Of a stretch of DNA of 64,000 nucleotides, positions 3,441 to 63,700 are shown piece after piece. This stretch comes from Saururus chinensis (Eukaryota > Streptophyta > Magnoliopsida > Piperales > Saururaceae). Position 1 is the first letter of the stretch, and every line of letters begins with the position of its first letter. The stretch lies in the NCBI GenBank assembly GCA_035235625.1, contig CP141142.1, forward strand, positions 35,846,995-35,910,994. Direction: 5' to 3'. Below the pieces are notes generated by a model, which had not been told where the DNA came from, did not search any database, and saw only the letters and a program-made list of their open reading frames with translations. Made by a program: the position numbers and the translations under genes.

Positions 3441-4006
3441 AATACTGTGTTAGATCCATGATCGGATCTTCTGTGTGATTCTAATCAGTCGTACAAGGTG
3501 TGTAGATGGGCTTGGCTATGAACGTGTCGGCCCTAGAGCATCAACAATATACTTAGTTTCTTTGTTATAAATTACTCATAAAAGAACTATTCTTTAGCCT
3601 TATATGCCTCTAAAAAATTATAAGTACATGGTAAAAGAGAAACATTCTATAAGCTAAGGATGGTCCACATGTAATGCTTCAACTTTTGAAAGAATATTAT
3701 AATAATTCTTTTGTAAACTAAGGTTAGTCCCTTTAGTGTCATGTTTCTTTTATATGATTTTTTAGGTATATTAATGTGATATCATGTTGACCCTCCATCA
3801 TATATTAATAGCTCCATTTGGTTTTTCAATTGAACAAATTTTAGTTCATCTTGAAAAACCAGATGAGGCTATTAATTTGGGACAAAAAGAATATATTAGT
3901 GTTTGTGTCTCTAATATTTTTATTTTTAAAAAATATATATCATACATAGAAATTATACATCCATCACAATTTAATAAGGACATATATCATAGAAAATTTT
4001 TATATG
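3441..4006. other. Intergenic DNA with a decayed Stowaway-like MITE
   Basis: The interval at 3790-3893 is an inverted repeat built around TTAATAGCTCCATTTGG and its near complement. It ends in a GGGACAAAAAGAATA-type Stowaway terminus, and the left terminus is degraded. The rest is AT-rich and shows no gene. Confidence 0.5.
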
Positions 4007-4011
4007 AGTTT
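4007..4011. repeat. Target site duplication AGTTT of element A (left copy)
   Basis: AGTTT directly precedes the TGTAAGATCC start of element A. It recurs exactly at 11289-11293, directly after the terminal GTGTGACA. This perfect 5-bp duplication fixes both ends of the element. Confidence 0.85.
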
Positions 4012-4403
4012 TGTAAGATCCCTGAACTTGAACCGGTTTTAATCCATTTGGTTTAATTGCTTTCGTGTGGTTTAATGTCAATTCTAATCGGTTCTAGACT
4101 ATTTTTAAAATTTAAGTATTTTTCAAAGGTTTTTACCAAAACTAGCTTTACATTTATGGGTTTTAAGTGAATTTGAGTTGATTATGAATATCTCAAAAAA
4201 TTAGGGTTTAGCGGGACCCCTTGTGGGCCCTATGGTCAAATTTGGGGTTTTTAGTCTAAAACATCCCAGAAATCAAAGGAAGTCATTACAAAAAATTTTA
4301 AAAGTTTTTTAGCCCTAATTAGAGTTTAAATAGCCAAAACACCTATTTTAGTTAAAAACTCTATTCTCACCCCAAGTTTTAATTAAGTATACTTATTCCT
4401 TTC

Positions 4404-4410
4404 TATAAAA
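4404..4410 (+). promoter_or_regulatory. TATA box of element A
   Basis: TATAAAA lies in an otherwise mixed context 392 bp from the element start. The homologous spot in element B (6261) also has TATAAAA. This implies a short U3 and a very long R-U5, if these are LTRs. Confidence 0.55.
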
Positions 4411-5084
4411 TGAAAGAGGCTGACCTTTTCCCATTTGGGAAAGAGCTGAGCCAATAAGTCTAAAGCCTAATCCTCAATTAAGCCCAAAGAGGAAGTGATT
4501 AGAAGTAAGATTTCTTTAATCTTTGCTTAATCTTTAGGGTTTTCTTAAACTTATTTTAATCTCATCTTCCTCCATTGATTCAATCCGTTTTTAAAGCATT
4601 AAATCATTGTTTTACTCCTCTACTTCGAACCCTAACCTTCACAAATTCGATTTTATGCCTCCTAAGCTCTAGATCTAAGATTTGTTTTATGATTTTCAAG
4701 TCTAAATCGAGTTTAGGTGTGTTTTAACATAAAAATCTTACTTTGGGAAGGTTTTGGAGGTGATTGAAGTATAAATTCGACTCAAATCAAATAGAGAGAT
4801 AATGGGTTTTCATCTCAGCTATAATATATGTATGCAAATCTCAATTTTTATGTGTTTTGATTGAATGAGTTTCATATTTAGAGCTTTAATGGTGATTTAC
4901 AAAAAGTTAATCTTTTAACTTGATTACTTAGGGTTTTGATTTGAAATGAGTTGATTTAATGTTCTTAAATATTTAATTTAATTTTGATGGTGTATGAGGC
5001 TTGGAATGAAGATTTTAAGCTCCATTAATAGTGCTTCAGTTTTGAATTTTGAAAGGAAGAAGAAGATCTTGATCTACCTTGTTG

Positions 5085-5215
5085 GCGATCGATTGGGACT
5101 AGTGGCCGATCGATTGGGCCGATCGAACGGCCTACCATGCTGATCGATCGGCCACACAACAAATGTGGCCGATTTTAAGGCTAGCCGATTGAATCCAGGC
5201 TGATCGACCGGCTAC
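5085..5215. repeat. Cluster of CGATCGATCGG-type palindromes in element A
   Basis: GATCGATTGG, CCGATCGATTGG, CCGATCGAACGG, GATCGATCGGCC and GATCGACCGG occur within about 130 bp of otherwise AT-rich sequence. The same place in element B holds a matching cluster in which most palindromes have become GTTCGAACGG. Confidence 0.7.
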
Positions 5216-6260
5216 ACAGCAGAATGCTCATTTTGGTGTTTTTGTTCTCAAGTGATGTTTCTAATATTTATGTAGAGTGTTTTAAGCTAGAGTAAGCTAC
5301 TAGAAGGGTATGCTACTTAAGTTGGTATTTATGAAACATGATTAAGTAATTTGTGGAATTACATGTGGATGGTTAGACATGTTAACATTGATTATTTTGA
5401 ACTTATGGGTGATAAAATTCTTATGTTCTGATTATGTTCCCAGCAATGTTATTGTATGACAATGAAATGATATGTTATATTATAATATGAAAGAATTGTG
5501 GGTGAATGGTGATATTATGTTCTTGCTTGATGTATAGATTAATTATGTTTATAAGAGTCAAGCTTTTGATTTCATATAAATGGAATGATGGTTTATGTTA
5601 GATTTCACCCATGATTTTAGTTGTTAATTATGATTATATTTTTATCAAAGCATGTGTGGATTGCCTTATGAGCTATTATCAAAGCATGGCCATGTGCTTA
5701 GAAATGTATGAACACACACATGTGGGGGTATTTGCTATGAAATCGTGGTTGTTTATGATTTGAATATGATACATGTGAGGACTGATGTGAGTACATTCCA
5801 TGTGTGGGAATTCACTTAGAACTTGCTCATGTATATATTGTAAGGACCCTCATCTCTAAACCGATTTTGGTTTTCTTTAATTGTTGGTTATCGTGAGATT
5901 AACGTGTTTTCTAATCTTATTCGGTGATTTCATAATATAAATAGTGTTTGTGATGGTTTTAATCAAAATCAACTTTAATATTAGTGGTTTTAAGTGATTT
6001 TAAACCAAATGTGAATTTTTGAGATTTTTTGGAATTTTTACTATTTTTTCAAAAATTAGGTTTTGGCGGGACCCCTATGGGCCCCACCATCGAAAATTTT
6101 ATTTTTGGGTAAAATGAACCTAAACATCTACCTAAGGTTATACAAAAATTTTCAAAATTTTCCTAGTCTTAATTAGTGCTTAAATTTACAAAATATCCAT
6201 TTTTAGCTTACTTTTCATATTTACACCCCAAAACTTACCCATGCATACCCCAACCCTTAC

Positions 6261-6267
6261 TATAAAA
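6261..6267 (+). promoter_or_regulatory. TATA box of element B
   Basis: TATAAAAGGG lies 422 bp from the element start, at the position homologous to the TATA box of element A. Confidence 0.55.
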
Positions 6268-6934
6268 GGGCAGACCTGAGCCATTTCTATTTTTGGGAAT
6301 AGGCTAAGGAGGGAGGGCTGGCCTAATCTCCACTTAGGCCCGAATTAGAAGCCAATTAAGGTAAGCTTACTCTAATTAAGCACTAATCCATGACTTTCTT
6401 CTTAATCTCTTCTAAATCTACCCTTTTCCCCCTTGATTTAATTCATTTTTGGGCATCAAAAGCTACTGATTTATGTTTTACTACAAACCCTAACATTCAA
6501 AATTCGATTTTTACTACCAACAAGCCCTAGATCCAAGATTTAATTAGAGATTTCTTGGGTAAATCGATTTATATTAGAGTTTAATTCAAACTCATTGTGT
6601 TTTCAAGGATTTCAAGAAGGGTGACTCTTCAATCCGAGCTTAATCAAGTGCTGAGGTAATGGGTCTTCAAAAATCTCTGTTTATCCATGGTAAAATTCTC
6701 CATTTTTGGCTTATTTCGAAATGGAGTTGCTTAGTTTGGTGTGTTAATGGTAAAATTAGAAAATAGAATTATTTAATCCCGATTTCTTAGGGTTTTGCAT
6801 TATTATGGTATGGTTTGATGTTCTGGAAGTCAAGAAGGACTTTTGATGATGATTAGGGTGTTAGATGTAGATTTGAAGTGTTATCAATGGTGTTTCGGTT
6901 TGAATTTGCAAAAGGAAGAAGATGAATTGTTCTG

Positions 6935-7115
6935 CCTTGTTGGCGTTCGAATGGCCCTTTTGGGCGTTCGAACGGCAACACTGTCGGAACGGCACTTTTC
7001 CAGTTCAGCCGATCAAACGGCCTATTGGGCGTTCGAACGGCCAAACTGTGAATTTTAAAATTTTGCGTGTAACCGATCGAACGGCCTGAAGGGCGTTCAA
7101 ACGGCTACACAACAG
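6935..7115. repeat. Cluster of GTTCGAACGG-type palindromes in element B
   Basis: GTTCGAATGG, GTTCGAACGG (several copies), CCGATCAAACGG and CCGATCGAACGG lie at irregular spacings. The cluster corresponds to the CGATCG cluster of element A at 5085-5215. Confidence 0.7.
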
Positions 7116-8334
7116 ATTGATTTTCTAATGCATGATGTTTATTTTGATGATTCCACTTTAGCTTGCCAATTTCATATGAATGTGGTGTGTTTCGAGCCAT
7201 ATTATGCTACTGAAAATGCATGCTATTGAGGTTATGAAGTTGGAAGATATGCTTAGAGATTTATAGAATGACTTATGTTTTATGACATGATGTTGGAATT
7301 GTCATCTTCAAATTATGAATGGTTGACTTCCTATGGTTGAGCATATTTTCAATAGCACTACAACCTATTATTGGATTGATTTGTCATGATAGAGTGTGGT
7401 TAGTTGGTGTGTAGATGTTGGTGAATGCCATGACTCAATGATAAAATGGGTGATTTATATGTGTTTAGCCCTTGTGGTTGAGATTTGAATTGGGATACAA
7501 TTTCAATGATTCTTTTCTATGATTTCCGCAGGAATTCATGTTTAGATGAAAAATTCACATGTGTAGTTTGGTAGTGAGTTTAATTTCAAGCATGTTGACA
7601 TGCATTATATGAAATGCTTCTACTAGTTACACACACATGTGGGGGTTAAATGATGATGTTGAAGCTTGATATGGTGATTATGAATGATGCATTAGGGGCT
7701 GATGAGAGCACTTATCATGGATTAGGATTCATGTATGCCTTACCCATGTATGTACCATGCTGCATGCATCATGAAAATGGATTTTCAATTGAGGCTACAT
7801 CGTGGTTAATCGAATTTGACCGATTGGATGCAATGTGATAAAATTGTGTGCCGGATTGATCGGTCGTGGATTAATCACAAGTTGATTGGTCCGAAAGGAC
7901 ATATTTTGATTTGAGTTCCTGTGTGGAACGAGTGTACTCCCCAGGTTGAGTCTTGTTAAATGGAATGATGTGGGGACGAGTTGTGTACTTGTCTTGTAGA
8001 TTGTGAGAATGTTATTATGAGTGTCATCTGGACCCTGAGAATCCAGTGTGGTATGCCGTGTGCACCCCGCTACCACGTGTTCTAGGGTTCTCTGTGTGAG
8101 AACTCGGGCTCTTCCCTCCGCAAGAGATGTCCCTGGGTGAACACCCCTGCTCTAGATTCTCTGTGTGAGAATGGGACATCCTTGTCCAAGATCTTCTAGG
8201 GCGAGCAGCATTAGGGATTGACAACCCCGATCTTTCTTTAATTCTTGTGTAGAATTTTGGACCATTATACTCCTTCGTGGCCTTGTCTACGCTCCTGTCT
8301 GTGTGACATTAATGTGTGATTACTCCTTGATGGA

Positions 8335-8725
8335 GGTTGTGATGATATAATGCATGTGAGAATATGTATGTTAGAAATACATTTATGCAGGTTGTGATGA
8401 TATAATGCATGTGAGAATATGTATGTTAGAAATACATTTATGCAGGTTGTGATGATATAATGCATGTGAGAATATGTATGTTAGAAATACATCCATGCAG
8501 GTTGTGATGATATAATGCATGTGGGAATATGTATGTTAGAAATACATCCATGCAGGTTATGATGATATAATGCATGTGGGAATATGTATGTTAGAGATAC
8601 ATCCATGCAGGTTGATTATGATATAATGCATGTGGGAATATGTATATTAGAGATACATCCATGCAATTTGATTTGATACAATGCATGTGGGAATATGTAT
8701 GTTAGAAATACATCTATGCAGGTTG
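8335..8725 (+). repeat. 55-bp tandem array with one hairpin per unit (element B)
   Basis: Seven units start at 8335, 8390, 8445, 8500, 8555, 8610 and 8665, each beginning GGTTGTGATGATATAATGC or a close variant. Each unit contains TGCAT, then ATGTAT, a 7-nt loop of the GTTAGAA type, ATACAT, and ATGCA. This gives an inner 6-bp stem and an outer 5-bp stem. Substitutions between units fall mostly in the loop and outside the stems. No reading frame is conserved across the units. Confidence 0.9.
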
Positions 8726-9663
8726 ATTATGCACCATGATGCAGTGTTAGGTGATATGTATGTGTGATCAGAAAATGATGCATCATGTAAATCTTTGATC
8801 TGAATGATCTTATTACTATGCTATCGTATTTTCGATGTTGACAATAATATTAAAACCATTGTTGAGTTTGTGAAACTCACCCCTCTTTCTTATGTTTTGA
8901 TTTGGGGCTACGTGGTGCAACACGCAGACAGACAGAATCTCCTCTTTGAGGAAAGGTCGGAGATAGCTTAGGTGTGATGATGGAGATCGTTGTGTGGCTT
9001 ATCTTCTTTGGTTTTATGTTTTATGATTTGAACCTTTGTGTAGGGTTCTTTGTTTTGGATTTATGTTACATTTTACAGTTGTGATGCTTATGACTTATTT
9101 TGAGCCGGTGTGGGCTGCAGTTAACTAAGCTTGTGGGTTTGAGAATTGTTGTTTACTTTGTGATAAGCAATACTCTTTATTCCTTTTTATTTATTCTTGC
9201 TCAAAGGATTGTGCGCACTCCGTATTTCTGTTAATCGCCCGTGGTTAGGCTTAAGTCTTCTGCTAGATCGTTTCTCAATTTTCACCTCGTCGCCCCCGTG
9301 CGTTTGACCGGCCCCTGGACCGGGTTCGGCTAGGGTCGGGCATCGCCGGGGCGTGACATGTATCATGAAATAGACTTCATGAATGAGTATTTATCAATGA
9401 TTAGTTGTGATTAATCGATTGTATGCAATAATGTGAGATTGTGTGCCGAATTAATTGATCGTTGGCTTAATCGGAATTTGGTTGGTCTGAAAGGACATGA
9501 TTTCAATTTAAGTTCCTAATTAGAACATAGATCCTCCTGGGGTTGAGAAGAGTGGAAATGCTATAAGGAGACCAACATATTGAGAGTATATGGACCCTGA
9601 GAATCCAGTTAATATGTTTGAGTGCACCAGCTTACCATATGTGTTGCTTGGGATTGCAGTCTT

Positions 9664-9826
9664 GACAAGCAGGGCTGCTCAAGGGCGTCGACTATGATGG
9701 GCAGGGGTTGCCCGAGAGTTTAGGTTTGAAGGGTAGGGGTTGTTTGAGGGCTTTAGCCTTGATGGGCAAGTGCTGCTCAAGGGCTTCGGCCTTGAAGAGT
9801 AGGTTTATCTGACAAGGGGTTGCTCG
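9664..9826 (+). repeat. 33-bp tandem repeat (element A)
   Basis: About five diverged units of 31-33 bp start near 9664, 9695, 9728, 9761 and 9794, with the pattern GATGGGCAGGGGTTGCCCGA or similar. Some units can form small stems, such as GGGCA/TGCCC and AGCA/TGCT. Confidence 0.7.
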
Positions 9827-9911
9827 ATAGCTTCGGTCTAGAGGAGCATACTTGTGTCATCTATTTGTGGATATGCATATTAGATTAGTGTGATTGAGAC
9901 ACTATTATGGA

Positions 9912-10490
9912 GGTTTATGTGATATGAATGTATGATCTAAATAGTGTGATTGAAACACTATTATGCAGGTTTATGTTATATGAATGCATGATCTAAATAG
10001 TGTGATTAAGATACTATTATGCAGGTTTATGTGATGTGAATGTTTGATCTAAATAGTGTGATTGAGACACTATTATGCAGGTTTATGTGATGTGAATGCA
10101 TGATCTAAATAGTGTGATTGAGACACTATTATGCAGGCTTATGTGATGTGAATGCATGATCTAAATAGTGTGATTGAGACACTATTATGCAGGCTTATGT
10201 GATGTGAATGCATGATCTAAATTGTGTGATTGAGACACTATTATGCAGGTTTATGAGATATAAATGTATGATCTAAATAGTGTGATTGAGATACTATTAT
10301 GCAAGTTTATGTGATATAAATACATAATTTAAATAGTGTGATTGAAACACTATTATGCAGGTTTATGTGATATGAATGCATAATCTAAATAGTGTGATTG
10401 AGACACTATTATGCAAGTTTATGTGATGTGAATGCATGATCTGAATTGTGTGATTGAGACATTATTATGTAGGATTATGTGATATGGTCG
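9912..10490 (+). repeat. 56-bp tandem array with one hairpin per unit (element A)
   Basis: Units recur at an exact 56-bp step from 9912 (9968, 10024, 10080, 10136, 10192, 10248, 10304, 10360, 10416, 10472), giving about 10.5 copies that begin GGTTTATGTGATATGAATGC. Each holds TGCAT, then AATAGTGT, the 7-nt loop GATTGAG, ACACTATT, and ATGCA. The 8-bp inner stem is perfect in most units. The array occupies the position of the 55-bp array in element B but has a different stem sequence. Confidence 0.9.
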
Positions 10491-11288
10491 CATGATTAGA
10501 AAGCGTGTGGAAGACACTTTTCATGCAGTTTATGTGTAAAATTATGCTTGAATTAATTAGATGAACTATTACCTATGCCCAATGGATGCTAGGTTATAAC
10601 TTGATCATTTGTGCGTTGACTTTGATAGGTGTGTTATATGCATTTTAGCTTTTATATTTATAGATAAATAGGGGTTTAGCAAGGGAATGATTAGAAAATG
10701 GTATACCATGTCAATTATGAATTTTAATTGCTATATTGTCATGTCTTAATGGTTTTCTAATTATTATCGTCGTATTCAAACCTTGCTAAGTTTTACTCAC
10801 CTCATTTTCTGTGTTTATATTTTAGGGCTACATAGTGCAGCATGCAGTCAAGCAGGACTCTCGATTTGAGGAACGATCGGGGAGAGCATGAGATTAGGTG
10901 TGGATGCATTTAGACTTTGTTATGTTTTTCTTATTTACTCTATTATGATAATAGAACATCATGTATGGTGGTTATTATTTTTAGACTCATGTATATCTTA
11001 TGTTTTTAGATTTATTTGAGACCTTGATTTGAGCCATGTGTATTAGCTCAGTATTCTATGTATGTGGGTATAAGACTTGCGGACTAGTTTTAAGTTAAAG
11101 TCCTTTTTTGTTCTACTTATTGCTCTTGTTCAAAGGATGTGAGATATGTAACTCCGCTAATTAAACTGCCCATATGAGGGGCTAAATCTTCTGTTATCCG
11201 TTAATCTCTTTCAATTTCGTCACCTCCGTGTACTTGACCTGCCCTTGGACTGGGTTCGGCTTGGGTAGGGCAATGCCGGGGTGTGACA

Positions 11289-11293
11289 AGTTT
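11289..11293. repeat. Target site duplication AGTTT of element A (right copy)
   Basis: This is an exact match to 4007-4011 and directly follows the terminal GTGTGACA of element A. Confidence 0.85.
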
Positions 11294-13379
11294 AGGCTCA
11301 CGTATGTCAACATAAGCCAAAACATCATGAGCCATTAGATCGAGATTCGATGGAGGGGGCAAAAATCAACCTCCCTTATGAATTATGTGTGTTATTAGAT
11401 CGAAATAAGAAGGTGCATGATGTAGGGGCTCAGGCAGATGTGAGTGAGCCTTGGCTCATATAAATATAGTTTATATATCATATATGATATATTATATTGG
11501 TACAAATATGTAAATATATGTCTTTTTATATACTCCTTCCATCCCTAGATTATTAACTCCATTTGATTTTTCAAAATGAAATAATCAAATGGAGCTATTA
11601 ATCTAGGATGGAAGGAGTATGTCATAAACATATATTTAAATTAATGATTGTATTTATAATATATATTATTTATATATAATTTTAAAATTATTTTCGGGTT
11701 TGGGTTTAAGTTCGTGTTCGAGCTGAGTTGAGTCAAGATGGAATACGCTCAAACTCGGCTTGAGTCTATTCGAGCTTGAATCAAGTTTGAGCCGAGCCCT
11801 ATTCGAGCCGAGCCTAATTCGAATTGACCCGAGCTAAGTTGGCCTTGTTCACTTGATAAATTGGCTCGGCTCATTAATAACCCTATATTATTAAGTTTTA
11901 AATTTCAATGGGTATAATAGATAAGAAAATTTTAAAATAGGGATACGCCACATATAAAAAAATATCTTAAAAATAATAAAAATAAAAATTTTAAAATTAG
12001 TTCCATAGCACCACCCTGGCCAAATCAACCCCAGTTCCCTTCTCTGTTTCCAGCTTTGGAAAAGGCTCCCGCCTTGCTATTATGCTAAAAAACTAGCCTT
12101 CACACATTTTAACTACTTTTTATATGTTCATTTAAATATTGCAGGAGACTCTCACGGGCTTATGCTTCACATTTTTTAGTGTAAACTCTTACTCCTAGCA
12201 TTGTCTCAATATTCTCCGAAATTTGTGTAAATCTTCACATTTCAACTCAAACAAATAATCAGAAAAATGTTCGTCTAATTCTCTAAAGTTATGCATTTTA
12301 TTTAAATGTGTGACAATTTCTTGCATATGCGCCAGAATAATAAGAAACCGCCAAAGTTTGTGGCCTAGTTCCATGAGGCCCATGCGGTTGTCTGTCCTAT
12401 TGGAGACCTCTCGCCGCATGACATTTGAGTGAAGCTTGATTGTTTTTCCATGTAGCCAAAATTTATTTAGAAGTTTTTATTGGAAAAAGCTAGGTTGACC
12501 ATCAGATAATGGTCTCACCGAGCCAGAGCTAAACATTCTCTTTTTCATTTTTCCCTCTGTCCTAATTTAATAATTTTATTTTAAAAAAAATTTATTTTAT
12601 ATTTATAGCTTCATTTTATTCAATTTAGGTAATTAAAAACTTATAAAAAAATATTATAAATTTATTTTTTTCTGTTAAATATGAGTTAAATAAAAATTAT
12701 TATTTTTTAAAATATAACTATTAATATAAAATAGAAAAAATATATCTAAATTGTTCTAAGCCCAGTCAAATCACTTATGAACAAATTACATTTTAATTTT
12801 ATGTCAATACATTTATGTATGAACTTCCGAACAAATTAAATTTTGATTTTATGACAATGCATTCATGTATGAACTTTGTGGGTTAGATTGAAGATGAAGA
12901 ATTTTCCAGAAGAGAAAAAAATATTTTTTTTGATGATTTGATATGGTATTTGTAGGATGCAATTTTGTGTATTATATTATTTTATAATATAAAACAAATT
13001 GATAAATTATTAAATTTTAAATTTTTGACTATTTAACTATGCTTTATACCATTAACCCCTAACTGACCCATCTTATTCCCCTATTATAATCTTCATTTTT
13101 TAGGTTATATTAATTGTATCTTTTTTAATATTATATATTATATTACACTCCCAAATTTAGATTCGTGCATTTTTAATATCTCATTAGAAAGCTTTTGACG
13201 AGCTCTATTATATGATATCTTTTATGATTATATTTTTAAATTTTTATTATTTTAAATTTTAAAATAATATATTATAACTATAACATGTAAGTGAGATTTT
13301 TATTTAATATATATTTTATTTTATCTATTTAATATTTACACGCATATATTTTTATTAATAATTTTTTTAAAAAATATTT
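11294..13379. other. AT-rich intergenic DNA
   Basis: Apart from the Stowaway element at 11533-11617, no gene or clear repeat is seen. The stretch from 12540 to 13380 is strongly AT-rich and has no usable open frame. The 74-residue minus-strand frame near 12195-12419 has no recognisable homology. Confidence 0.5.
11533..11617. mobile_element. Stowaway-like MITE, 85 bp
   Basis: A nearly perfect foldback begins CTCCTTCCATCCCTAGATTA and ends TAATCTAGGATGGAAGGAG. It is flanked by TA on both sides (11531-11532 and 11618-11619), the Tc1/mariner-type target. The arms carry ATTTGATT and AATCAAAT around a short loop. Confidence 0.9.
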
Positions 13380-36170: not shown

Positions 36171-37079
36171 AGAAGATTGACCCAAATCCCCAGGGCTTTT
36201 AATAACCTGCCACGAATACGGAGAAGTGGATTCGAACTGTGCTTATGGACAGAGATTGACAAAAAATACAAGTCTTCCATGATGCTTATGTCACTCCGCT
36301 TTTTATATGTACTATATAGTCATGTGAAGTCCTGCAGAAAAACCATGATAAAGACCTCGTTGGCCAATACAAAAACTGTTGTGGAAGTGAAGAAAGTGTA
36401 CAAGTAACACAATCTCCACCATTCCAACTTTAGGAAAAATATCTTCAAAGATATAACTAATGTAACTCATAAAAACCTAAGGTCTTTATGATCATTGACT
36501 CCCTCAAATATTCAAAACTTAGACTCGATTATTTTTATCTAGTCAAGTATTTATCTAACCAATTGGGTCCTCTTCACATTGTGAATCAGTGCAATAAATA
36601 GCTCATCTAATGGGCTATGACTTAGAGAACATCTCAAACCCTAATAGTCCCCATGAGACTAGGGCAAAGTCCCATAACTATAGCCTCAGTTCATTAACCA
36701 AGGTAAGTTTCCATGTTAGGGCCCTTGTTCACTCCATGAACCATTCTCAGACCCCATTTAAGGCATTTTAGTCTTTATCTTGATTAGGTGTTCTTTCCCC
36801 AATCTAACGTCAACCAATATCTTTTGATCAATCTTCATTAATCTTAAGTTACCATTATAAATTAACTCATCGATAATAAAAGCATATATCAGAGTAAGGA
36901 ACATAAATAACATGAAGTCACACATGTCCATTAATAATAAATAAAGACCCTTTGAACTCATTTGCAGGGCTAGGGCTAGATGAGTAACGTATAAATTAAG
37001 GCAAGTGTAAAAGGAGCATGAAGACCTTAGAATGACACTGATACACAAAAATGTCTGCATCTTGGAGCAACAAAATATA

Positions 37080-37224
37080 CTCCCTCTATCTTATATTAAT
37101 AGCTATATTTAAAAAAATAATAATTGTTATTAAATAGTGAAACCCACATTTATGAGAAGGAAAAATAAACTTATGATACTCTTTTTTAAGTACCCAATAA
37201 TAAATTAAATAAAAGGGAGCTATT
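37080..37224. mobile_element. Stowaway-like MITE, cut by element D
   Basis: It begins CTCCCTCTATCTTATATTAA after TA. It is colinear with the complete element at 47763-47922 through AAACCCACAT, GGAAAAATAA and TTATGATA blocks. The sequence stops matching at GGGAGCTATT, precisely where element D begins (TGTAACGACC). The missing right end was not found beyond D. Confidence 0.65.
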
Positions 37225-38203: not shown

Positions 38204-38450
38204 AAGGGGAGGTTCTGCCCGTTGCCTATGGGGACAGGAAGAGAAAAGTGTTTTCGGACAAGGGGAGGTTCTGTCCGCTGCCTACGGGCATTGTGAGGGT
38301 AAAGTGTCTCCGGGTAAGGGGAGGTTCTGCCCGTTGCCTACGGGCACGGGAAGGGAAAAATGTCTTCGGACAAGGGGAGGTTTTGTCCGCTGCCTACGGG
38401 CACTGTGAAGGTAAAGTATTCCAAAGTTACAGAAGGTTCTGGCCGCAGTC
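38204..38450 (+). repeat. 56-bp tandem array with GC-rich hairpins (element D)
   Basis: AAGGGGAGGTTCTG or a variant starts at 38204, 38260, 38316 and 38372, and a decayed unit at about 38428. The step is exactly 56 bp. Units alternate between two types, GCCCGT-TGCCT-ACGGGC and GTCCGC-TGCCT-ACGGGC, so the higher-order unit is 112 bp. The first type forms a perfect 6-bp stem. The second keeps four or five pairs, including a wobble. Confidence 0.85.
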
Positions 38451-40261: not shown

Positions 40262-40268
40262 TATAAAA
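40262..40268 (+). promoter_or_regulatory. TATA box of the CIPK gene
   Basis: TATAAAA lies in GACCTATAAAACG, 254 bp upstream of the start codon. This gives a predicted transcription start near 40290-40300 and a GC-rich leader of about 225 bases. I see no ATG in that leader. Confidence 0.65.
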
Positions 40269-40386
40269 CGTCTCCGGACCCCTTCCCCGTAACTTTGCTA
40301 AAAATAAATTCCGTTTTCAGCGAAAGAGGCGGCGAGCGCCTGAATCCCAACAACCCTTTTCCCCGATTTCGCCGCCCAAGGCCACC

Positions 40387-40406
40387 CGTCCGATCCTGAT
40401 CGGACG
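40387..40406. promoter_or_regulatory. Perfect 9-bp inverted repeat in the CIPK 5' leader
   Basis: CGTCCGATC, then CT, then GATCGGACG: a 20-base near-palindrome. In RNA the minimal loop is too tight for full pairing, but a slightly opened hairpin is possible. It could also be a dimeric protein site in DNA. Confidence 0.5.
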
Positions 40407-40521
40407 ATCAACAAGTACAGTTATATCTCCGCCACCGCCGAGAGCCTCCGCTCTCCAGAGGGAGAGTCAGACGGAGCGTTCGTTGAAGCACAAACCTATC
40501 CCTGCTCTCTCTCCACCGGCC

Positions 40522-41841
40522 ATGCCCGGCTCCGGCGCCGCCCCGCCGGAATCCGGCGAAGAAACCGGCGGCAAGGCCGTCCTCCTGGGGCGCTATGAGA
40601 TCGGCCGGCTCCTCGGCTGCGGCGCGTTTGCCAAGGTCTACCACTCACGGGACCTCCGCACCGGGCAGAGCGTGGCCGTCAAGTCGATCAGCAAGGCCCG
40701 GGTGGCCAAGTCCGGGCTTGCCGGCCACGTGAAGCGGGAGATTGAAGTGATGCGCCGCCTCCGCCACACTCACATCGTCCGCCTCCACGAGGTGCTCGCC
40801 TCCCGCTCCAAGATCCACTTCGTCATGGAGTATGCCAAGGGCGGTGAGCTCTTCTCTCGAGTCGCCCGCGCCGGCCGCCTCCCCGAGGACCTCTGCCGCC
40901 GCTACTTCCAGCAGCTCATCTCGGCCGTCGGATACTGCCACTCCCGCGGCGTCTTCCACCGCGACCTCAAGCCCGAGAACCTGCTCCTCGACGAGCACGG
41001 CGACCTCAAGGTCTCCGACTTCGGCCTGTCCGCCATAGTTGCCGCCCCGTCCGATGACTCCCCGCCGTCCTCGCCGTCTGTGCTCCACACGCTCTGCGGG
41101 ACCCCCGCGTACGTCGCGCCGGAGATCCTCGCGAAGAAAGGATACGACGGGACCAAGGTCGACATCTGGTCGTGCGGGGTGATACTCTTCGTCCTGGGCG
41201 CCGGATATCTGCCATTCAACGATCCCAATCTGATGACCATGTATCGGAAAATCTACAGGGGGGAGTTCAGGTGCCCGCGGTGGATGTCGGCCGACATGAA
41301 GCGGATGATCTTCCGGCTCCTGGACACCAACCCGGAGACGAGGATCACAGTGGAGGAGATCATTCAAGATCCATGGTTCGCAAAAGGGTTCAAGGAAGTG
41401 AAGTTCAAATTCCACGAGGAGGAGCCCAAGGAGGAAGAGGCCGACCGGAGCTTGAATGCTTTTGACATTATCTCCTTCTCGTCCGGGTTCGACCTCTCGC
41501 CGCTCTTCGACGGGGGAGCGGAGGACAAGGGGGCGGCTACACCGGGGGCTGGGTGGGAGAGGTTCGTGTCGGAAGAGGCGGCGGGGAGAGTATTGGAGAG
41601 GGTGGAGGAGGTGGCGAGGGAGGTGGGGGTGGAGGTGCGGAGGAAGGCCGGGAAGGGGTGGCGAGTGGAGATGGAGGGGCAGAACGGTAATTTCAGCGCG
41701 GCGGTGAGCGTCCGCCCCCTGTGGGAGGGGCTGGTGGTTGTGGAAGTAAAGAAGCGAGCCGGCGAGTGGTTTTGGCGGGGGAGAATCCGTCCCAAGCTCG
41801 ACGGCCTCGTTTACCGGTTGCCGGGGCCCGAGCGGCTTTGA
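40522..41841 (+). CDS. CIPK: CBL-interacting protein kinase (CIPK/SnRK3), intronless
   Basis: It encodes 439 residues in one exon, the usual CIPK length. I chose the ATG at 40522; the frame is open further 5' but has no other ATG. The kinase domain runs from about 25 to 286: glycine loop GCGAFAKV (32-39), VAVK with Lys54, HRDLKPEN (146-153), DFG (166-168), a long activation loop, and APE (199-201). The regulatory part holds the NAF/FISL motif ([20 protein letters not shown], 310-329), which binds calcineurin B-like calcium sensors and holds the kinase off, then a PPI-type phosphatase-interaction region (about 345-370). Absence of introns and overall form fit the intronless clade that includes CIPK4, CIPK7 and CIPK14. 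Very high GC and GC3 contrast with the flanks. Expected role: Ca2+/CBL-dependent phosphorylation of transporters in stress or nutrient signalling. Confidence 0.95.
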
Positions 41842-42590: not shown

Positions 42591-43530
42591 AGAGAGACCA
42601 TATTGGTTTCTAGACAATTTATGTGAAAAAGTAAGTAATTCAAAAAATTTAATTAATTAATTAAGATAGATGCTACATATTGATTTTGTCAATAGTATTG
42701 GAGATTAAAAATAATATTAAGAGCTTTTATATTTGTGTTGTTAAAGAATGAATCCTAATTGTTACTCAAGATGACACTTATATTTAAAAAAATTGTCTGG
42801 TAGCTCATAATTATTATATATATTTTTACAATTACTAAAAATATTATTTTCATTGTGCATATTGCTAATATTGATTTTTTATCACATAAAAAACTATTGT
42901 ATTAAGCACATGCATTTGTTACACACTTTGACTATATTAAAAATATAAATGTGGGGTCATATTAGTTTTTGTTCCCCTCTGCCGTCTATCTCACGCCTTA
43001 CAGCATGAGCTCACAGGTTTATACAATCTTTTTCAATATAAAATTATAAGAAGATCCGCACATAAACAAGGGGCACATAAGATTTTTCCAATGTGCCTAC
43101 CCTGTACTTGCCCCTTAAGAATATCAACTCATCCTTCCTTGTTATATTAATAATTTTATTTAATTTATTTTAAGAAGAGATGTAGGAAATAATTTTTAAT
43201 TATATTTTTCTCTTAATAATCTGTCTCAGACGGTGCAGGAGTTGGGGGATGCGCCGACGCCTGATTGCATGATTAAGCGGCATGACTCAGTTTTCAGAAG
43301 CGATGTCACAGTTGGCCGACCACATTATTCAATTGGGTGAAGTGCTTAAAAAATGAATTTTAGAGATGGTTCCGTCTTCTAGTGCTATAATTAGCAAGTC
43401 TCTACTTTTAATCAATGGGCAACAGCAAAAACCCAAAACCTGATCATTTTGCTGTAAATTTTACGCTACAGTTACCATGCCTTGTCTCCGCAGATTGCAA
43501 GCTCCAAGACAAAATATTCCAAATGACTAT

Positions 43531-43711
43531 AAAGTGTTCATCTTATATTAATATAATGAACTTTTGGACTGATTAACACTATTTGCTTGACAAGAAAGTG
43601 TTCATCTTATATTAATATAATGAATTTTTGGACTTATTAACACTATTTGCTTGACAACAAAGCGTTCATCTTATATTAATTTAATGCACTTTTGGGCTGA
43701 TTAACATTGTT
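43531..43711 (+). repeat. 64-bp tandem repeat, 2.8 units
   Basis: AAAGTGTTCATCTTATATTA starts at 43531 and 43595, and with changes at 43659. Copy 2 of the segmental duplication has only one unit (about 50210), so the expansion followed the duplication. Confidence 0.85.
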
Positions 43712-43734
43712 TGAAAGCATACTTCGGGGCTGTT

Positions 43735-60752: not shown

Positions 60753-63700
60753 TTAAAAGTTATTTTGTATGTCATCTTTAGAGTACATATGTTCTCCTTC
60801 TTCTTCTTGTTCTTCTTCTTCATCTTCATTTGGCACAACATCAGCTTCTTCATCACAATACTCTAGCGAAGTCTCATCTTCAATATCACTTTTTGTTATA
60901 TCATCTAAAAATGTACCATCTCCTTGATCCAGTTTAGAAATATTTGAAGCATCAATAAAATTTAGGCCCATATCATCCCTACTAAGGGGTGAAAATCATG
61001 TTCTTCATCTTTGACGTTCCTATCAACCATGTTTGCCTCGTAATCAACATGCTCATCTGTCTCCTCATCCCTTTCCACCTTAGAGGAAGAGACATGTGGA
61101 ACATGATATATGTTTCGTGGTGGTACTTTCTAAACTACATGCCAATTGCCTTTCAACTTAGGGTCCTTAAGGTAAAAAACTTGCTCCACTTGAGATGCCA
61201 ATATGAATGGATCATCTTTGTACCAAGTGTGGGAGAATTAATACTTGTGAAATGCTCATCTCTCTGCATACCTTTCTTGTTGCTAAGATCCCACCAATTA
61301 CATTTGAAAATGTAGACACACCTACCTCCATAATAGTTCAAAGCAATAACATCTCTCAAAACACCAAAAAATTCAATATCATGACCTTCGTACTCTCCTT
61401 TGACAACTACCCCAGAATTTTGAGTTTTAGGATAGTCATCACAGTCGGTAATATGGAACCCAATACCTTGGACAATACAACTAGCATATCGTATGACTAG
61501 TGAATCAAGACCACATGCTAATGAATACAAATCATCATAAGCTTGCGGCGATTTTTGAGCATGAAATTGTTTCGTCTATTAACAACAATAGTAAAAAAAA
61601 TAAGCACATGCACTTTCCAATTTATGTTTGAGTAACAAAAGTCTTAAACACTTACAAGTTGTGCAAACCATTCTCGAAAAGTTTTCTCACGCCTCTCTTG
61701 GAAGTTAGTAGCTCCTTGACTAGCAATATATTGTTTGTGTTCCCTATATGAAATATATCAAATAAAGAGATATAAAAGGAAATAAGAACTATTAATTATA
61801 AATAATATAGCTTACTTACTGTAAATAGTAATAAATCTCAGAACAATTATTCAGAACATACATCCGAGCCTTGTGAAGATCATTTAAATCCATATTAATG
61901 GATTTGCCACTCCTAAAGTGCGTACATTTGGTGTAAAAACAGAAAGACCTTTTTATTGTTGTCCTGGAAGATTGTTATAATTTCTCTCTTGTCGATTGAA
62001 TTTTGTTTCAACATCTTCAAAGTACATGAAACAAAAGTTCATACCTTCATTATCAATGTATGTTTCTGCAATGGAACGCATGCTTTATTTCAAACATATT
62101 TCTTCAAAGTATGCAAGAACATTTCTATTGGATACATCCATCGAAATTGCACAAGTCTAGCATTAATCGCTTCACTTGGATGGTCGATTGCTAAATGTAC
62201 CATCACATCAAAGAATGCATGTGGAAATATTTTCTCAAGCTTGCATAATATAACAACGATGTCCTTTTTCATTTGTTCCAACTTTTCCAAGTTCAAAGTT
62301 CTAGAACATAATTCCTTGAAAAATAAGCCTAACTCAATTAATGCATTACCAACGTCCTTCCGCAATTGCCCACATATTGCCTCGGGAAGCAACCTTTGTA
62401 AAAAAATGTGACAATCGTGACTTTTTATACCTACTAACTTACAATCATTGTTGTGTATACATCGGGAGATGTTTGAAGCAAAACCATCTGGAAGTCTCAC
62501 CAACTGTAACCAAGAACAAAATCTCTTCTTCTCATCAACGGACATTGTGTAGCAAGCTTGTGGCACCACATATTTATCACCATTTGGAACGAGATGCAAC
62601 CGATCCTTTTTGATACCCATTTCTTGCATATCTAGTCTAGCCTTTACGTTGTCTTTTGTTTTCCCCTCTATATTCATCAATGTTCCCAATACATTGTCAC
62701 ATATGTTTTTCTCAATGTGCATCACATCTATATTGTGCCTCAATTTAAGTAATCTCTAATATGGCAATTTCCAAAATATGTTTTTTTTCCTCCAATTCAA
62801 CTCATTTGGAACATACTTCCTCTTCTTTATATTAAGACCATTACCAAGTTCCAGATCTGTCACTGTATGTAATTGCATGAGCAAATCATCCCCGAATAGT
62901 TATTTAAGTGCCAACTTTCTCTCTTGAGTACCATCAAATTCCTTCCTTTTTCTTCGCCAACAGTGATTAATTGGGAGAAAACGATGATGACCGATGTAGC
63001 TTATCTTTCTTCCATGCTTCAGGTACCATGAATATGTCTCTTTGTTGCAATTAGGACATGCTATTTTTCCTTTTGTAGACCAACTAGATAAATTTCTATA
63101 CACAGGAAAATCATTAATGGTCCACAATAACGCTACATGCATTTGAAATTTCTCCTTCTTCGATGCATCATAAGTTTCTATTCCGTCTTCCCATAACTCT
63201 TTCAATTCATCGATCAATGGTTGCAAGTAGACATCAATGATATTACCAAGAGCCTTTGGACGAGGAATAAGTAATGACATCATAAAAAAATATTTTTTCA
63301 TGCACTTCCAAAGAGGCAAGTTGTATGACATAAGTATCACTGGCCACATACTGTATGCTTCCCAAAAGGATTGAAACCGTCACTCGCTAGTCCAAGTCAA
63401 ACATTTCGAGGTTCATTTGTAAACCAACCATACTTCTCATCAAATTCATGTCATGCTTGAGAATCTACTGGATGCCTTAATACATTCTCATTTAAATCAT
63501 TAATATTTTTCTCTTTATGTCATCTCATGTACGAAGTTGTCTTCCTGCACATGAATAATCTTTACAATCTCGGTTTTAGGGGAAAATAACGCAAGACTTT
63601 TTGCAGAATCTTCTTCTCCTTGGGATTATCATATTTGTATCTCGGTTGCTTACACTTTGGGCATATTTCTTCCTTTTCAAACTCCTTCCAAAAGAGAACA

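Follow-up and report, generated by a model that had tools for sequence, protein, structure and literature searches.

Two related long terminal repeats (LTRs) each carry a tandem array in which the units hold an inverted repeat. The reading that we prefer, at a probability of about 0.45, is that the LTR leader held an old inverted-repeat site, that this site was multiplied in tandem and that its B type has been kept by sequence, selection on the fold being poorly supported. The ancestral LTR would have carried one or a few units of about 57 nt with an inverted repeat, mostly some 0.6-0.8 kb before the LTR end, and each subfamily would then have multiplied one unit variant by tandem duplication, presumably through unequal exchange or strand slippage. 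Because single unit variants would have been amplified, each main stem type would have arisen once and then been copied, and therefore the paired difference between the A and B types would mainly represent one old split of unit types and not ongoing compensatory evolution. In the abundant B type both arms would be kept by their sequence, with loop and spacer free to vary, and the putative constraint would be the sequence-specific recognition of a candidate inverted-repeat DNA site in the LTR.

Should the B-type core prove to be a genuine site acting in cis, sequence constraint on a plant LTR leader would become directly measurable, with thousands of LTRs of several units each serving as natural replicates. 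Furthermore, paired changes between two tandem families can mimic RNA covariation though they are traceable mainly to one split.

Nested solo LTRs in the window

The window, which is the whole stretch of 64,000 nucleotides that was analysed, corresponds to C3:35846995-35910994 of the Saururus chinensis nuclear genome (516 Mb, 11 contigs). The two related LTR-like elements of the original prediction were confirmed: both are solo LTRs, they can be aligned with each other, and element B is nested inside element A (Table 1). They are alignable over most of their length, with an identity of 58-60% in three MAFFT segments and of 75-78% in a looser pairwise alignment. The target site duplication (TSD) of A is perfect, and the flanks of the B insertion, TATAT and TGTAT, match at four of five positions around TG...CA ends. 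The distance from the array to the LTR end is about 0.64 kb in B and 0.76 kb in A. Since a TATA-like TATAAAA lies about 0.4 kb from the start of both LTRs, the arrays are probably within the transcribed leader.

Table 1. Coordinates in the window of the nested LTRs, their arrays and associated sites
Feature	Position	Strand	Remarks
Element A solo LTR, 5' part (TG start)	4012..5838	+	TGTAAG start; aligns with B 5839-7768
Element A solo LTR, 3' part (CA end)	9359..11288	+	Sequence ends and LTR alignment
Element B, 3520-bp solo LTR within LTR A	5839..9358	+	TGTAAGG...GTGACA
TSD of element A, left copy AGTTT	4007..4011	.	Identical AGTTT straight after the TGACA end at 11288
TSD of element A, right copy AGTTT	11289..11293	.	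5-bp duplication perfect
TATA-like TATAAAA, LTR A	4404..4410	+	392 bp from LTR start; aligned with B copy
TATA-like TATAAAA, LTR B	6261..6267	+	Read from sequence; about 0.4 kb from LTR start
B tandem array, 7 units of 55-56 bp, TGCAT...ATGTAT-7nt-ATACAT..ATGCA	8335..8720	+	TRF and unit alignment
A tandem array, 12 units of 56 bp, most AATAGTGT-7nt-ACACTATT	9856..10527	+	TRF and unit alignment; first and last decayed
Last A unit, third stem variant AAGCGT-7nt-ACACTT	10472..10527	+	One C.A mismatch in 7-nt-loop register
12-bp palindrome ATGATGCATCAT	8775..8786	.	3' of B array; scan of aligned LTR columns
12-bp palindrome ATGGTATACCAT	10698..10709	.	Aligned with 8775-8786 of B

Retrotransposon family and genome copies

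The A and B group is a Ty3/Gypsy chromovirus, because one B relative, on C1, has reverse transcriptase, RNase H, integrase and chromodomain (RVT_1, RT_RNaseH, Integrase_H2C2 and Chromo, above the curated cut-offs in pieces of the internal region between its two LTRs). This relative measures about 3.4 kb in the LTR and about 3.7 kb in the internal region. A PBS-like TGGTATCGGAGC, which we take to resemble the initiator tRNA site, stands just after the LTR, and a PPT-like tract is followed by a B-like LTR start; together with the TG...CA ends and the TSDs, these are LTR hallmarks of chromoviruses. Within the window we found only solo LTRs of this group. The long LTRs and the chromodomain presumably point to the Tekay/Del lineage. 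With plant Ty3/Gypsy chromoviruses of the Tekay/Del-like kind the group has in common the chromodomain, the RT-RNaseH-integrase order, the PBS-like site after the LTR, the TG...CA ends and a 5-bp TSD. However, the LTR is very long here (3.4-3.8 kb in the three measured), nearly all sampled copies bear the hairpin-bearing array of 54-59 bp, and the internal region is short in the one copy examined.

A 35-base pattern of the LTR end with at most 3 mismatches had 2249 forward and 2282 reverse matches in the host genome, whereas the reversed control had 0. We fetched 40 LTRs, picked by eye for variety from about 100 listed places on one chromosome, and 37 of them had a 54-59-bp array, the other three being L079, L080 and L088. 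The array ended about 0.6-0.65 kb before the LTR end in most of them (exceptions L078 and L098), and the unit number differed from copy to copy. The DNA searches scored the best 40 of 2201, 2397, 1833, 1204 and 1655 candidates, and therefore the sampled copies lean to close relatives. The stretch C1:20670194-20713179 contains seven LTR ends on one strand with a spacing of 7152-7169 bp, resembling a tandem of LTR plus internal region, and it was from one of its internal regions that pieces were examined for protein domains.

Regarding the arrays themselves, their place in a dispersed element and their variable copy number are those of LTR subrepeats. Tandem arrays inside plant LTR retrotransposons are well known and seed satellites, according to PMC7004042 and PMC11963269, and the arrays described there share with ours the family-specific short repeats, the dispersed element and the variable copy number. 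According to PMC6317226, LTRs of very large size and tandem repeats are also found among non-chromoviruses. In Retand elements the array is located between pol and the 3' LTR, whereas here the LTR itself contains it, in most cases at 0.6-0.8 kb from the LTR end, with an inverted repeat per unit. We found no description of hairpin-bearing LTR subrepeats in chromoviruses in the literature searched, from whose coverage most subscription papers fall out. The A and B arrays belong to a known class of LTR subrepeats, and this particular array is apparently undescribed in that literature.

Tandem units and their hairpins

TRF reported a 55-bp period with 7.2 copies at 8330-8725 and a 56-bp period with 11.6 copies at 9886-10536. 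For B, the seven 55-bp units originally described are indeed seven in register, one of them being of 56 bp, and the inner stem is perfect in 7/7. For A, about ten units had been described, all with perfect inner stems; the period of 56 bp holds, but the count is 12 with the outermost two decayed, and among the 10 middle units, counted by eye, the stem is perfect in 6, has one G.U in 2 and mismatches in 2. The outer stem TGCAT/ATGCA is unchanged between A and B and the loop has 7 nt in both, as had been noticed. The third stem variant in the last A unit is also there, although not fully paired (Table 1). A loose pattern of this variant found 17 places in 14 of 31 loci, a few of which are chance or other units; the 7-nt-loop register was fully paired in 2/17, and one G.A mismatch was common to five.

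Upstream of the hairpin array, at 9660-9830 of the window, there is a GAGCAGGAGTTGCTC-like repeat of about 33 bp, which forms an inverted repeat as well and was also seen in L078, L079 and L089.

Paired differences between A and B

A structure-blind MAFFT alignment places the A and B stems in the same columns. Between the majority units, both sides differ at three of the six shared inner pairs (columns 32/50, 33/49 and 36/46), with no pair broken, so the original prediction was right about homologous units with paired differences in both arms in LTR-derived DNA. At least three double changes with none broken would have a probability of 3e-5 to 2e-4 under neutral drift from a perfect-hairpin ancestor at 25-50% divergence, and this improbability (around 1e-4) counts against our preferred explanation. 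These three pairs favour another reading, namely that the units are selected RNA hairpins of the retrotransposon leader, acting in packaging, dimerisation or translation control, whose pairing was kept as the stem sequence changed. The 7-nt loop length, kept in both types, points the same way. Taking into account the conservation, covariation and folding given below, we regard such hairpins as rather unlikely.

The hairpin alone is weak evidence, because perfect stems of at least 6 bp anywhere in the unit are common among shuffled units (17% for A and 27% for B; at least 8 bp for A, 1.5%). These figures would suit ordinary neutral subrepeats, in which 6-bp hairpins occur by chance and the match between A and B is a post-hoc coincidence, and so would the A stems, which are as variable as the rest of the unit, and a third array of the window (array C, also of 56 bp), which has a hairpin of its own. 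Nevertheless, only 1 in 200000 column shuffles reached the observed paired difference between A and B, and the B stems are strongly conserved; we therefore consider neutral subrepeats very improbable.

The terminal A unit shows the B state at pair 32/50 and the A state at the remaining two changed pairs, which means that the paired changes were not all simultaneous. This counts against our preferred explanation; it also suggests more than one step and is a point against template switching, during replication or reverse transcription, which would have recopied one arm from the other and produced paired changes without selection. The mechanism is described in PMC8794818, and the hairpins there resemble ours in that the stems are perfect and that paired changes span several bases with no stepwise compensation, the likeness being one of stem pattern. 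One split accounts for the main paired changes, as a switch would leave them, and the A stem of the window is a perfect 8 bp whereas many A-type relatives have wobbles or mismatches in a variable left arm, opposite a nearly fixed right arm ACACTATT; a frequent form of that left arm, AAGTGTGT, breaks two pairs. However, the mechanism by itself leaves the lower variation of the B arms relative to loop and spacer unexplained, and we judge it unlikely.

Outside the arrays, 2859 aligned LTR columns were scanned, and the sole other shared helix of at least 5 pairs with double changes (about 0.1 expected) was the pair of 12-bp palindromes of Table 1, which show paired differences between A and B. By eye, the palindrome is perfect in the relatives L006, L007 and L041. 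It was rejected as a second covarying structure, being lost, also by eye, in L004, L008, L030-L032, L069, L079, L080 and L088.

Conservation of the stems

The conservation set comprised 440 B units from 64 loci and 278 A units from 35 loci, i.e. 795 units minus 13 overlaps, 50 gapped units and 14 ties. Units were typed by their loop and internal-loop letters, and the 13 rows dropped were those doubled by the overlap of L001 and L029 (the first conservation count had 194/242 unit rows). In B, the mean frequency of minor letters was 1.0% in the inner stem, 0.6% in the outer stem and 0.8% in all the stem, versus 2.9% in the loop, 4.5% in the internal loop and 18% in the spacer. The parsimony events per column were 3.2, 2.0, 5.7, 9.0 and 8.0 for inner stem, outer stem, loop, internal loop and spacer respectively. 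The B stems were less variable than the other core columns (permutation p 5e-5), and a shared variant was present in 9 of 22 stem columns versus 22 of the 27 remaining ones, spacer included (Fisher p 0.007). The conserved B stems are expected both from selected RNA hairpins and from recognition of the DNA site.

In A, the corresponding minor-letter frequencies were 11.7% (inner stem), 4.1% (outer stem), 9.6% (loop), 14.9% (internal loop) and 5.1% (spacer), with 10.5, 6.6, 13.6, 14.8 and 8.0 events per column. The A stems were not more conserved than the rest of the unit (8.2% vs 7.6%; p 0.33 on core columns), which argues against RNA hairpins. At the A pair 15/31 the commonest state is G.T, which a folded RNA would tolerate (93 of 231 distinct cores), but T.T follows with 76 of 231, and the pair 14/32 is G.A in 53 of 229 cores.

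Regarding the departures from pairing in the inner stem, B had 24 G.U of the + strand, 8 of the - strand, 18 other mismatches and 1 double change, all of them non-independent unit cells, and A had 56, 33, 196 and 17 respectively. In the outer stem, the G.U cells of the + and - strand were 10 vs 11 in B and 36 vs 42 in A. Counted as events, they were 11 vs 5 (B inner), 7 vs 10 (B outer), 28 vs 25 (A inner) and 13 vs 28 (A outer), in a typing of units that relied in part on arm letters and is thereby biased towards conserved stems and against double changes. The G.U changes thus lean to the + strand in the inner stems only. The lean of the B inner stem (24 vs 8 cells) favours RNA hairpins and counts against our preferred explanation.

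Covariation and predicted fold

We used 744 of the 795 units as usable (at most 3 gaps, the overlap of L001 and L029 still being within the 744); 387 were distinct, and clustering left 145 representatives. L004, which overlaps L003, was excluded from the unit counts. The test for covariation proposed with the original prediction was run in a tree-aware form by a custom script, not by R-scape: on a FastTree tree, parsimony substitutions were redealt over the columns in 60 simulations, and pairs were scored by a G-test with average-product correction. Among 630 column pairs of the 145 units no stem pair was significant, at a low power due to few deep splits, and the best one, columns 14/32, ranked 18 of 630 with an E of about 38. 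This result speaks against RNA hairpins.

Double changes were also compared with shuffled arms, relatedness being ignored. The single one in 440 B units compares with 0.15 after shuffling, and 70 of 500 shuffles reached 1. The A units showed 17 double-change cells in 234 distinct cores versus 5.8 when the arms were shuffled among cores, and 0 of 500 shuffles reached this number, which would favour RNA hairpins; however, 9 of the 17 cells belong to three units whose stems are B-like (L008, L069 and L088). At the A pair 16/30, three G-C to A-T double changes in three loci, versus 1.4 after shuffling, count against our preferred explanation. The remaining A double cells are single cases, in decayed or terminal units.

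The units were also folded. In the A array, the six units with perfect arms had predicted mean stem pair probabilities of 0.56-0.85 on the sense strand and 0.62-0.81 on the other strand, so the expected hairpin is predicted there. In the B array, on the contrary, the values were 0.00-0.27 on the + strand, which is the LTR sense strand and favours other helices in the predicted fold, and 0.44-0.68 on the other strand. The search in Rfam gave 0 matches to known RNA families. Both results count against RNA hairpins. In retroviral LTRs with long R regions conservation has been linked to stem-loops, according to PMC3601003. Residual conservation of both stem arms in a long part of the LTR is common to both cases, but ours has many tandem copies and a sense-strand fold that the prediction does not support in B. 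Judged from sequence, the conservation of the B arms would fit recognition of a DNA site best and a folded sense RNA less well.

Actually, selection on the folded shape, which the original prediction had proposed, is only partly supported. The B stems are conserved, as it would require, but the A/B changes fall on one split, tree-aware covariation is not significant, the A stems are variable, double changes are few and the hairpin is not predicted in the B sense RNA. A single origin of each stem followed by amplification, the outcome set against selection at the outset, is largely what we found (one split; B double changes 1/440).

Single units and the origin of the hairpin

In L079 and 9/9 fetched relatives, a stretch of 271 bp contains a single B-like unit directly preceded by an A-like one; relatives were fetched if their match was single and full-length or nearly so, the other matches of the search being tandem. 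In L105 the sequence continues into A-like units, in L088 one B-like unit has A-like surroundings, L080 and 20 fetched relatives carry units with other stems, and L042 has A-like and B-like units in one array. Because single units are found in related LTRs, the hairpin is probably older than the amplification and the hairpin-bearing units older than the arrays. The alternative is that single units are contracted arrays, and this possibility, as well as the selection of the single-match relatives of L079, weakens the older-hairpin reading. Two distinct old units may have given rise to the A array and the B array.

It might also be that the leader array of inverted-repeat sites is a cis-acting element, that arm sequences were exchanged between subfamilies together with the factor reading them, and that the same place was re-amplified in each subfamily, although from the present sequences we consider this quite unlikely.

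A separate observation is that L008, L069 and L088 have units that combine a B-like stem with loop or internal-loop letters of the A-like kind, as would result from a swap of stems between unit types.

Other features of the window

An LTR-like start TGTAACGACCC occurs at 37225-~39100 and has its own 56-bp array, array C, at 38204-38445. Its units are TGYCCG-7nt-CGGGCA, and an upstream arm CGGACA or CGGGTA pairs with TGTCCG or TGCCCG, the units alternating. Array C had 69 matches in the host genome, with the best 40 of 1655 candidates scored.

At 3791-3876, 11523-11627 and 37073-37214 there are small elements with inverted repeats, whose ends are CTCCCTC/CTCCTTCC-like and which we take to resemble Stowaway-type MITEs. 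LTR C seems to be beside or within one of them.

Finally, by eye, we observed a GC-rich CIPK-like kinase ORF at 40267-41841 (+), reading-frame pieces like a CACTA-type transposase at 61153-63379 (-), and an array of 64 bp x 3 with long inverted repeats in the unit at 43524-43713.
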